A DNA stretch of 64,000 nt from Amphirosellinia nigrospora (taxonomy: Eukaryota; Ascomycota; Sordariomycetes; Xylariales; Xylariaceae). The translations under genes were made by a program, and so were the position numbers. Where the stretch lies: the NCBI GenBank assembly GCA_004123355.1, contig SCHM01000005.1, positions 310,001 through 374,000 on the forward strand, written 5' to 3'. Shown in pieces: positions 15,411 through 19,552 of this stretch (position 1 is the first letter of the stretch; each line of letters begins with the position of its first letter). The notes under the pieces were generated by a model. That model searched no databases. It was not told the origin of the DNA and saw only the letters and a program-made list of their open reading frames with translations.

Positions 15411-18400
15411 ATGGCTTTGCCGGATTGCCAATGTGACAAGATGGAAATAATCAGCGGCAGCAAGGACCTCATTACTGTACACAACGCATATCTTACGATT
15501 CAAGAAATCTCCAGGCTTCAAAGGGCGTGCGAAACAGATAGTGAGCTTAAACTCTTCTATGCTGATCTCACGGCTTACAGCATTTTGATCCGCGATCACT
15601 GGGATCGCATTCCCAAACCTATCGCGCAGACAAATAATGCACTCCATGATCGACTCTTGACGCAGTTAGAGACGGCAATTACCCCAAACGTCTTCGGAGA
15701 ATATCGTATCTCCGCTTCCAGACTTTCAATCGGCGCGAAACTATACGCACTTCATCAACGATGGGAACAAAGTCGCAGGGAAAATGACAATAACTTGAGG
15801 CTTCAAGCGTGTTCATTCGTATCTAAACTTTGGCACAACAGCTGAGGCACGCGATGAATTCATACATACGCTAGCCACATGCGAAGAGGAGATCAAAAGC
15901 TATATCCCGAAGATCCTTCCGAATGGACGATGGACGACTTCTCCCCCCAGAAGAAGGTTAGGGAACCGCCATTCGCGGTCGCGAGTGCAGCAAAATCGAT
16001 TTTCAAAGCACTAACTGCTTGCAAAAGCTGCACATGTTGTCCGATGCATGAGTTTATTGCTCGGTTTCGCTTAGGTACCTATCGAAAACCTGAGCTCGAG
16101 TCCGACTCAAGCATAGATGTAGGACTTGACTTCGACATGTTTCTTTCCATGACAGAGGATTGGCACGAGGTTTGTGTCCACGCGGCAAGAAAGTGCTGTC
16201 CGTTTCGCAGTCAATGATGAACTAGGACAGCCTCACCCAAACCGAAAGGTCACGGAATAAGGCAATGAAGGTGAAAAGGTTATGTGAGCCGATAGCGAAA
16301 ATTCGATCAATGACACAATATCGGCTTGAGTTTGAAGTCATACGGGGTCAATTATTTAAGCTACAGTCTAAAAGAAGCACCTCGCTTATTGACACAAGGA
16401 AAGATTGTATTTCCTTAGAGGAATTCCTTCAAAACGGTTCGCGCTCCTTCACAGAGAGAACGAGGCGCATTCGGCGGTGATCTTAGCTCCGCAGTTTTGC
16501 ATTTACACGACACCCCCTGGTTACAGCCACATGGAGCTCCTCCAATGTGTTGTTTTCCGTACAGCTTCTTCGGCTTTCCTTAAGGCCATTCATTCAGATC
16601 AAACTTTCAAATACTGACCATACACATGACTCGGAAGGATTCGAGATAGTTGCGATGGCGATGTAGGAAGTCGGAAGGCGGCGCCCTCGACGACATGGAC
16701 CCAGACGGACATTGATCCAGACGATTTAATTCAGCACCAATGTCCTATTTCTTACCTCATTGGCTGTAATTTTGCTGGAACTATATTTTGTGATGCCTTT
16801 CAACGAACTGGCTCAAAGATACGGAGTTGAGTTAGGAGAAAACTTAGGAGTTCGGAGCCACACAAGGAACATCGATACAACCTTGGTCTTTAAGGCCTGT
16901 AGGAATGAGATACCTGAGAACTTCCAATTCCTCTATGCGGTTGAAAATGTCTAGATCCCGAAGTTGGGAGGATGCGGAAACAACAGATTAGACAGCCAGG
17001 CATTAAGACCAAGATCTACGAAGAGTCGTTCGTCCACTTGAGACTGAACTAACCCAAACTGCAGCTCCATTTCCATTGACTCACTCGATGAGTTCGCGAG
17101 AACTTGGACTTTGCAGGCTGGGATCGTATTATTCGACCATTAAACCAGCAGCCTATATCACCGACTCCACCTGGTCGCTCACCGGCGCCCAGGGAAACAT
17201 TTACTCCTTCACCTGGACCTCTCGGTCGAGCTCCACGCAGGTATTTCCCACACCTTGGTTCAAATTCTAATTGTACGGGTCAAATTTATGAAAGCTCCCA
17301 GTCGGCTCAGTTTCGCTCTTGCCCCCCGTACCCGCATGGTTCCATGTCCAACTATATCTCATACAGCTATCAATAACATCGACTACAAAGTTCCTAAGTT
17401 CTTTGATGACGAAACCATTCCGCAAGCCCATCCCACAGAAGCGTAAGTCCCTTTGTTCTTTAAATGCCATGCATGATAATGTATCGGTACATTTAATGTG
17501 CTAACCCACCTATCATAGATGCCAGAGCTACTTGAGCTGGAAGACAAAGTACCGAGAGGTATATGAGAAGTTCATCCCGGACCAGTTGGCCAGCAGTCGC
17601 TCAACGCCAGTCAGGATCGCAATTCTTGATACGGGTATTGATTGACAACACCCGGACTTTGATGCACGCGGAGAGAATATCAAGGGTAGATATAACTGGC
17701 TCGACGAAAACCACGTAAATTTGGTCTATGATCGTACAGGGCACGGCACATTCACAGCCGGTCTACTGCTCGACTATGCCCCTGACGCAGAACTATATAT
17801 CGCCAAGATTGCCGAGAACACGCCGTCAAACCCTAAGATTCTAGCTGCAGTAAGTAATGGCGATTTTTTTAAGAAATTAGAACAAGTTTAAGTTGACATT
17901 GGCTCTAGGCTATCCGCCATGCTGTCGAGATATGGAATGTAGATGTCATATCTATGTCGTTTGGGTTTCCGGATCGCAATATCGAGGACTACTCACTGCT
18001 TGAAGACGCTCTCATGAATGCTTATGCAAACCATGTTTTACTCTTCGCCGCCGCCTCAAACAACGGTGCCAGGCTCAGTCTCTCATACCCAGCCCGCGAG
18101 GGTACAGTCATCGCCGTGCATGCGACAGACGTGAATGGCAATCGATCGGGATTCAGCCCGACTGCAACGGATGATAGGATCACATTCGCGACTGTTGGCG
18201 AAGCTGTTGAATCGGCATGGCCAACATACTTGTGTGAGGAAAACACGAATGCGACTTTTGTCCGAGTCAAATCGGGCACTTCATTTGCAACGCCGATCAT
18301 GGCAGGTATCGCGGCTTTTCTTTTACTTTATGCGCGAGTACATCTCCCCGAAATTGCCCCTCAATTGAAGAGCTTGAAAAGAATGGAGTCGATCCTGAAA

Positions 18401-18538
18401 AAGGTTGCAGAGAAAGGGAGCATGTACAAACCCCGGGATGGCTATCGTTTTATCGACTTGAGTTTACATAACGATAGCCTATTTGGGAAAGATAAAGGGT
18501 ATATCGATCATATCATTAGAGATCTCATATGTACTTGA
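15411..18538 (+). pseudogene. DUF7580-like helical domain plus S8 subtilisin-like protease, broken
   Basis: The amino part resembles fungal DUF7580: helical text, then HEFIARFRLGTYRKPE, DFDMFLS, DWHEVCVH, a CISLEEFL segment, HDTPW, LAVILLELYF and a PLETEL ending. The carboxy part is a peptidase S8 domain with all three catalytic motifs: ILDTGID (Asp, about 17630), GHGTFTAG (His, about 17740) and SGTSFATP (Ser, about 18278). An intron (17850-17908, GTAAGT to CTCTAG) splits the protease domain. Several one-base indels lie in the amino part (about 15843-15880, 16195, 16480, 16940, 17030). A TGA at 17643-17645 directly follows the Asp motif; unlike the indels it needs a substitution. Expected role: intracellular protease of a programmed-cell-death or incompatibility system. 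Its 3' end is 71 bp from the end of the gasdermin-like gene, in convergent orientation. It could be a true pseudogene. Confidence 0.7.
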
Positions 18539-18609
18539 CACAGGGATGCTTAGAATATTTAGTGTAATATAACTTACACAACACACAGAGGTTGTAGTCC
18601 CATCCATTA

Positions 18610-19552
18610 CTACTCAATATCTGTCAGACCATCTGGAACAGTCTGGATAGTATGAACCATTAAATCCTCATTCTCCGTTAACTCCCCATCAAAGAACCCT
18701 CCAACATCATCATCCACCTCTGCTTCCTGCTCTATGAACCCCAACTCCAAGCCATCCCTCCTGTCCATTCACTCCTTTTAGCATTGCACCTTTCTTGTAA
18801 TCTTCCTCTTTGCGCACTGAACCCGTCTTCCTCTCTACCACTATCTTCCGCACCCGAAAGGCAAAAATAAAATCACTAGCTCCTTCCCATGATACATCGT
18901 CCTTACTGCCCATGTTTCTACCAACCTCAATACCACCACTTATAGGGGTACCCGTCCAAGGCGTTGCGTCAGCCCCGACACTTATCTCTCCATCAACGGC
19001 CCGTCCCTTGAAGGATCTAGCCTTTGCTCCCGTGGCAATCTTCATGCCCGTGATAACGTATATGGGTTTGCGATAGCGCGACTTTTCCAAGTAGCGCCGT
19101 ACGGGTTCGGCAGAAATGCAGGCGTGGATATATGCAGGGTCAGGGGAGAATTGAGTAGTCTTAAGACTTTCAAAGGCAAAATGGGACATGCCACTATACG
19201 CGAGGCGAGAGAAAGCATCAGCCTACACCTCATGATGATGCCGAATGCCGGGGTTGCATATAGTTACCTACTTCACCTCCCAGCCAAGCGTCGCGTCAAC
19301 CCCGACACCAAGCACTACATTCAAGAACTTCGTGAATATCCCAAGCTTGACCCCACAGAGCTTCTCTTTCGAGAAAATAACCTGCCTTTGCACCGTGGAG
19401 AAGATGGCCGAGTTGTCTGGCTTTTGCCCCTTGTAGAGTGCTCGCTCGGGTGTTTTGAGGGAAGTGATGACATTACCTAATTGGATAGGCCCAGAGGAAG
19501 AGGGGTAATCCCATGTTGGCGCGAGGAAGAAATAAGGAATACAATTAGCCAT
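18610..19552 (-). CDS. Gasdermin-like fungal protein (HET-Q1/RCD-1-type candidate)
   Basis: A small protein of roughly 260-300 residues with two exons (19552-19272 and from 19193; intron donor GTAGGT, acceptor TATAG). It starts with a hydrophobic strand (IPYFFLAP). The second exon carries KPIYVITGMKIA, then a Gly/Ser-rich hairpin region, then DFIFAFRVRKI. The order and spacing of these strands match the pore-forming domain of gasdermins, which have an 'xVYVVTE' strand and a later 'LAFRV' strand. Fungal gasdermins are of this size and need proteolytic removal of a short carboxy-terminal segment to form membrane pores and kill the cell. A one-base frame change near 18735-18745 separates the body from an acidic carboxy end that stops at 18610; the uninterrupted frame stops at 18710. 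The adjacent subtilase gene supports the call. The family call is by motif pattern, without a search. Confidence 0.55.

Follow-up and report, generated by a model that had tools for sequence, protein, structure and literature searches.

The stretch of the Amphirosellinia nigrospora genome analysed here (contig SCHM01000005.1, positions 310,001 to 374,000; the whole 64 kb are referred to as the window) belongs to an assembly of 48.1 Mb in 11 contigs, and carries a gasdermin gene, a protease gene and a third, C2H2-like gene side by side. The protease gene, which combines a DUF7580 region with an S8 subtilase domain, occupies 15411–18538 on the plus strand (introns 17443–17518 and 17850–17908; 987 aa in its ortholog). 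It is followed tail to tail by the gasdermin gene on the minus strand (18610–19552), with a gap of 71 bp between the two stop codons (18539–18609). On the other side, the C2H2-like gene (12718–15108, minus strand; introns 14821–14761 and 13876–13790) is transcribed divergently from the protease, and the intergenic region between them (15109–15440) is a possible two-way promoter. An original prediction, made from the sequence without database searches, had described the locus as a gasdermin/S8 subtilase pair, tail to tail and 71 bp apart. The pair is supported by sequence, profile and fold matches and by the S8 match, and the spacing agrees with the end of the plus-strand gene at 18538 and the stop of the small gene in the ortholog frame at 18610–18612, but the third, divergent gene had been missed. 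The gasdermin-protease pair is genuine and belongs to a known type; what is new is that a third gene accompanies it and that the trio recurs in a single genome.

The gasdermin gene consists of exon 1 (19552–19272), a 78-nt intron (19271–19194) and exon 2 from 19193 onwards, the intron joining exon 1 to the open reading frame (ORF) at 18710–19222, a join that is backed by the orthologs. The two strands on which the prediction had relied, IYVITGMK and FIFAFRVRKI, both lie in this single minus-strand frame. Searches with phmmer matched RCD-1-2 (3.5e-7), the HET-Q1 pore (6.4e-5) and RCD-1-1 (1.7e-4), and a family profile built from 53 of the 56 gasdermin homologs of relatives matched RCD-1-1 (1.3e-15), RCD-1-2 (2.2e-13), HET-Q1 (3e-9) and a bacterial gasdermin (0.001). 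The fold comparison that had been proposed gave the same family: all 14 matches of the gasdermin model at E ≤ 0.001 were to RCD-1, and the HET-Q1 pore chain 9uv9 was not among the fold-search matches listed. Pfam returned no family for the window gasdermin at E ≤ 10. Of 54 gasdermin columns that 90% of relatives conserve, the window copy differs or lacks a residue at 1. Judged by sequence homology and by the modelled fold, the small minus-strand gene is a fungal gasdermin of the RCD-1/HET-Q1 family. A second intron of 58 nt near the gene end was dropped, as the relatives read through it, its donor is poor and it has no clear branch site; the homolog search and the phmmer and Pfam runs on the window gasdermin used the gene version that still contained it. 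Among the 56 gasdermin homologs, P0052 (Trichoderma viride) is the sole one with a precomputed Pfam domain, PF26164.

Past residue 232, the family carries a short tail (median 54 residues) with a net negative charge in all 53 aligned relatives (median -13), and the pore part of the same proteins has a median net charge of +6 (range 0 to 12). At the junction, all 53 aligned relatives have an alanine and, two residues further, an L, M or F. The charge pattern suggests that the acidic tail may mask the basic pore domain. The closest relative at the gasdermin-protease locus is Xylaria arbuscula (X. arbuscula), with a gasdermin identity of 77%, and relative to its ortholog the reading frame of the window gasdermin breaks once, near 18770, immediately after the pore domain and ahead of the acidic tail. 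Because of this break the product of 18610–19552 cannot be read in a single frame. The exact cleavage site of the window gasdermin is not mappable through homology.

The protease gene is 83.2% identical to its X. arbuscula ortholog P0057 (987 aa) over 970 residues. Two starts are possible, at 15411 and 15441, the latter being the codon at which P0057 begins. The S8 domain (17523–18538, plus strand) is matched by PF00082 in two parts (2.1e-17 at 17909–18520 and 0.0069 at 17646–17855), has an in-frame stop near 17643 and keeps the catalytic triad of Asp (DTGID), His (GHGT) and Ser (GTSFATP). The DUF7580 (PF24476) region lies at approximately 15980–17055, as placed by alignment to residues 182–539 of P0057. 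A profile check of this gene for both domains had been suggested, and its two halves fared differently: S8 was found within the window itself, whereas Pfam found no DUF7580 in the two N-terminal pieces of the window protease and detected it in P0057 (PF24476 1.6e-33, PF00082 8.9e-30). Among the protease columns conserved in 90% of relatives, 8 of 174 differ or are empty in the window, none of these 8 in the S8 domain. Hints of a kinase-like nature of DUF7580 are weak: a structure search of BFVD returned, after subtilases, best matches that include viral kinases (E 0.007 and 0.09), and a DUF7580 profile met the kinases of this genome at E 0.028, no better than a kinase-versus-S8 control (0.021). 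No paper naming DUF7580 or PF24476 was found in the literature searched.

The third gene was aligned to P0177 of X. arbuscula at 77.7% identity over 728 aligned residues (span 15108–12757). It is labelled after the names under which its homologs are recorded, and a Pfam search of P0177 at E ≤ 0.1 returned no family. A few of the 120 listed homologs are joined to other domains, namely WD40 in P0251 and a phosphatase in P0254, and P0288 and P0294 carry accessions that we take to be ankyrin and TPR domains, respectively. In P0284 (Penicillium expansum) the C2H2-like part and an S8 domain form one protein model, which may be a merged gene model. The literature searched yielded no report of such a C2H2-like gene beside gasdermins and no paper treating gasdermin, C2H2 and heterokaryon incompatibility together, with one Neurospora pangenome paper mentioning PF26082 once.

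Linkage in relatives was assessed with the 56 gasdermin homologs, the best 120 of 242 protease homologs (119 with an assigned contig) and the best 120 of 154 C2H2-like homologs, two homologs being counted on a shared contig when equal-sized contigs appeared in both tables and each cluster of proteins showing one contig. In the synteny check that the prediction had proposed, 31 of the 56 gasdermin homologs share a contig with a listed protease, and the organism names agree in all 31. By size these are 30 distinct contigs, 5 below 100 kb and 21 below 1 Mb. Nine gasdermin-protease pairs have consecutive locus tags (NUW58_g4378/4379, GQX73_g288/289, B7463_g888/889, Hte_002619/002618, JDV02_009016/009017, QQX98_000865/000866, PG985_003281/003282, G7Y89_g12088/12089 and AK830_g7709/7710). 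Of the contigs of the C2H2-like homologs, 17 also appear for gasdermins and 34 for proteases; 15 are common to all three families, and 11 of these 15 are below 1 Mb. All three genes are consecutive in three cases (Hte_002617-002619, B7463_g888-890 and G7Y89_g12088-12090), and three further protease-C2H2 pairs are consecutive as well (N7451_010721/010722, N7481_007356/007357 and ACHAPJ_010999/011000). On large contigs genes may co-occur by chance; most weight is given to the small contigs and the consecutive tags. When 22 of the 31 pairs matched by contig were compared, the gasdermin and protease distance matrices correlated with r 0.857, a value reached in none of 2000 shuffles; of the nine pairs outside this test, one involves P0016, the second gasdermin from its genome, and the other eight have a protease outside alignment A2. 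The agreement is given little weight because shared species history predicts the same. Nemania sp. NC0429 has two gasdermin homologs, P0003 and P0016, on a single contig of 300 kb that also holds one of the listed protease homologs.

The arrangement recurs within the A. nigrospora genome. A genome search with P0001 gave gasdermin matches at four loci, the window and three others (L018, L019 and L020). A profile search of six-frame segments, run on 14 kb at the window locus and on nine other stretches of the genome, placed gasdermins at the same four loci and C2H2-like matches at all four, the weakest at L018 (best segment 1.3e-9); gasdermins too distant for the P0001 or profile searches would escape detection. 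L018, L019 and L020 each have a DUF7580 gene by Pfam, divergent from the C2H2-like gene, and S8 was detected at the window locus, L019 and L020. Three of the other stretches (L026 to L028) contain DUF7580 with no gasdermin or C2H2-like match by profiles, and L029 has only a C-terminal piece of a C2H2-like gene. At L027 (C1:13309000-13318900) and L028 (C5:1165000-1174900), a protein-kinase match lies a few kb from each DUF7580 match. A protein model of Cylindrodendrum hubeiense, P0115, joins DUF7580-S8 to a part matching the L018 gasdermin, as a fusion or as neighbours merged in annotation.

The frames of the window copies are broken, which the prediction had not recorded: both of its genes are present, yet neither forms one intact frame when compared with the X. 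arbuscula orthologs. Besides the gasdermin break near 18770, the protease shows 15 frame breaks against P0057, all from about 15804 to about 17344, and the one in-frame stop near 17643; the C2H2-like gene shows seven breaks and zero stops against P0177. Two control families were examined in the same assembly. In PF00118 (CCT), 6 of 10 loci carry frame switches that leave no room for an intron, 10 in total or 0.70 per kb; in HSP70, 5 of 10 loci carry 8 such switches, or 0.68 per kb. Most CCT and HSP70 genes are essential, and because they nevertheless show frame switches, the assembly is probably indel-rich. The breaks in the window copy are probably assembly indels as well; in view of CCT, HSP70 and the neighbouring gene, a plain pseudogene reading is less probable. 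Other apparent pseudogenes in this assembly need the same check against assembly indels.

Taken together, the locus is likely a three-gene fungal gasdermin cell-death module, made up of the gasdermin, the DUF7580-S8 protease and the C2H2-like partner, with breaks that are probably assembly indels. The original suggestion that it is a further member of the gasdermin-protease class, with a DUF7580 region on the protease, is upheld by these results. In the resting state, the pore-forming gasdermin would be kept off by its short acidic tail, with the DUF7580-S8 protease acting as sensor and activator beside the divergently transcribed C2H2-like partner. A signal perceived by the DUF7580 region and/or the C2H2-like protein would release the S8 protease, which would cut the neighbouring gasdermin at or near the conserved junction ahead of the tail. 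The freed basic pore domain could then bind acidic membrane lipids, oligomerise and kill the cell. The computed basis of this proposal is the gasdermin homology and fold, the S8 domain with its triad, the three-gene linkage and the family-wide combination of basic pore domain and acidic tail; the cleavage event and its position, the pore, the triggering signal and whatever part the third gene plays are inferred.

Several observations weigh against this reading. The gasdermin structure model is of low confidence (predicted local distance difference test score, pLDDT, 61). As many as 25 of the 56 gasdermin homologs lack a demonstrated link to a protease among the best 120 of 242, though they are not thereby unlinked, because the protease comparison was made with those 120 and with one contig per protein cluster. 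At L018 (C1:7294500-7304400), no S8 or other Pfam protease was recognised between DUF7580 and the gasdermin, so that not every cluster shows a recognisable protease. A divergent C2H2-like/DUF7580 pair without a detected gasdermin is present at L025 (C1:4009000-4018900), and a weaker one resembling it at L030 (C1:10977500-10987400), where DUF7580 was found by the custom profile only (1.9e-8) and not by Pfam; the third gene is therefore not specific to gasdermins. As for the frames, one of the 10 CCT switches is doubtful, its fragments overlapping by 284 nt, and the break densities of about 5 per kb in the protease, about 1 per kb in the gasdermin and about 3 per kb in the third gene exceed the 0.7 per kb of CCT and HSP70, the method used for the locus being the more sensitive one. 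Moreover, amino-acid changes found only in the window outnumber those found only in the ortholog, with 50 versus 13 in the broken protease stretch and 23 versus 9 in S8 (outgroup P0058), and 17 versus 7 in the gasdermin pore part (outgroup P0002). The excess holds in every protease stretch compared with P0058 and is largest in the broken one, while for the gasdermin tail it depends on the outgroup (11 versus 3 with P0002, 4 versus 5 with P0003). Local sequence errors would produce such an excess, and so would some recent relaxation.

The alternative that survives best concerns the third gene alone, which might be a transcription factor or a cluster bystander outside the switch. The C2H2-type source names of its homologs and the divergent promoter are consistent with this, as is the fact that 103 of the 120 listed C2H2-like contigs are not in common with a listed gasdermin. 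The fusions of a few listed homologs to WD40 (P0251), to a phosphatase (P0254) and, unless its model is merged, to S8 (P0284), together with the presumed ankyrin (P0288) and TPR (P0294) fusions, look more receptor-like, and a role as transcription factor or bystander appears rather doubtful. Decay of the cluster, in which the protease sensor part and perhaps the gasdermin tail have truly been lost in this strain, is unlikely to a further degree. It would follow a "pseudogenization" route for which a model in allorecognition has been published (PMC10197012), and it draws on the excess of window-only changes and on the clustering of 15 breaks within 1.5 kb of the N-terminal part of the protease, the next 1.2 kb having no breaks and one stop. 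Nevertheless, the same kind of breaks occurs in the CCT and HSP70 genes, the adjoining C2H2-like gene has 7 breaks and 0 stops, the protease itself has a single stop against its 15 breaks, and all S8 columns conserved in 90% of relatives are kept; in addition, a true break at the gasdermin junction would remove the very tail thought to keep the gasdermin inactive. Finally, it is improbable that both genes are real and the gasdermin is activated otherwise than by its neighbouring protease, as RCD-1 is by a partner allele: its nearest solved relatives in sequence and fold are indeed RCD-1, described in the accessible review text as an exception needing two co-expressed variants, and L018 has no detected S8, but the linkage across many genomes, the acidic tail with its hydrophobic junction and the HET-Q1/HET-Q2 cleavage reported in the available part of PMC10989679 speak against it.

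Compared with known systems, the window locus is best filed as a cluster of a gasdermin and a Q2L-type protease. Two-gene clusters of a gasdermin and a Q2L protease were reportedly described by Clave et al. in 2022. At the window locus, the protease lies 71 bp from the gasdermin, well under 10 kb, and its S8 domain has the catalytic residues, with the stop near 17643. In the passages available from PMC10989679, PMC10197012 and PMC12881547, about 80% of fungal gasdermins are stated to adjoin a Q2L protease, and kinase-like domains fused to the protease are described. The window locus shares with these clusters a gasdermin next to a multidomain S8 protease and differs in its conserved C2H2-like gene; two- or three-gene gasdermin clusters are mentioned in general by one review (PMC10197012/PMC12881547, available text), and the terms "C2H2", "zinc finger" and "DUF" occur in the available text of neither.

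With HET-Q1/HET-Q2 of Podospora anserina the locus has in common a gasdermin and an S8 subtilase, the HET-Q1 match and a short C-terminal part. HET-Q2 reportedly cuts HET-Q1 at F238, removing 40 residues (PMC10989679), and the two are idiomorphs at one locus, with HET-Q2 comprising 388 aa (PMC10989679, PMC10197012 and PMC12881547). The window genes, in contrast, are neighbours in one genome, and the window protease is about 990 aa long with a DUF7580 region. The locus is not a het-Q idiomorph, the gasdermin and protease standing side by side here and under consecutive tags in nine relatives. RCD-1-1/RCD-1-2 of Neurospora crassa is the best sequence and fold match of the window gasdermin, but differs in its trigger, since in RCD-1 cell death follows when two antagonistic gasdermin alleles meet in the same cell, according to the reviews (PMC10197012, PMC12881547). 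Bacterial operons of a gasdermin and a protease follow the same logic, as these reviews mention (PMC10197012, PMC12881547). Their gasdermins give the weak profile match mentioned above and belong to a different sequence family. To our knowledge, no DUF7580 or C2H2-like partner occurs in them.

One review (PMC10197012/PMC12881547) counts among the major open questions which stimuli switch on the varied putative sensors in fungal death pathways. The third gene, conserved at four gasdermin loci here and on 15 contigs of relatives, offers a specific candidate for a sensor or regulator still lacking from the picture, and DUF7580 gains a likely role. A tentative extension, in which we place limited confidence, is that the divergent C2H2-like/DUF7580 pair is a reusable fungal sensor cassette, whose fusion to S8 would fire an adjacent gasdermin and which at L025, and on weaker evidence at L030, would presumably act on another effector. 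If so, DUF7580 and the C2H2-like family would form the sensing half of a fungal pyroptosis-like death, and the working unit would be three genes and not two.

Across the 64-kb window, no Rfam families at the gathering score and no tRNAs were found. A mannitol dehydrogenase gene (5356–6671, plus strand) encodes its two domains in separate frames, the matches lying 53 nt apart, which may reflect a short intron or an assembly indel. The right neighbour of the gasdermin (20091–22032, minus strand) is spread over several frames; it weakly matches a beta-propeller (0.016) and includes a coiled-coil-like stretch as well as a GTPase-like one (Dynamin_N 0.0017, below the cut-off). Two HET-domain genes (PF06985) lie on the minus strand at 27746–28348 (2.8e-26) and 41780–43519 (4.7e-30), and the region therefore holds other incompatibility-type genes.

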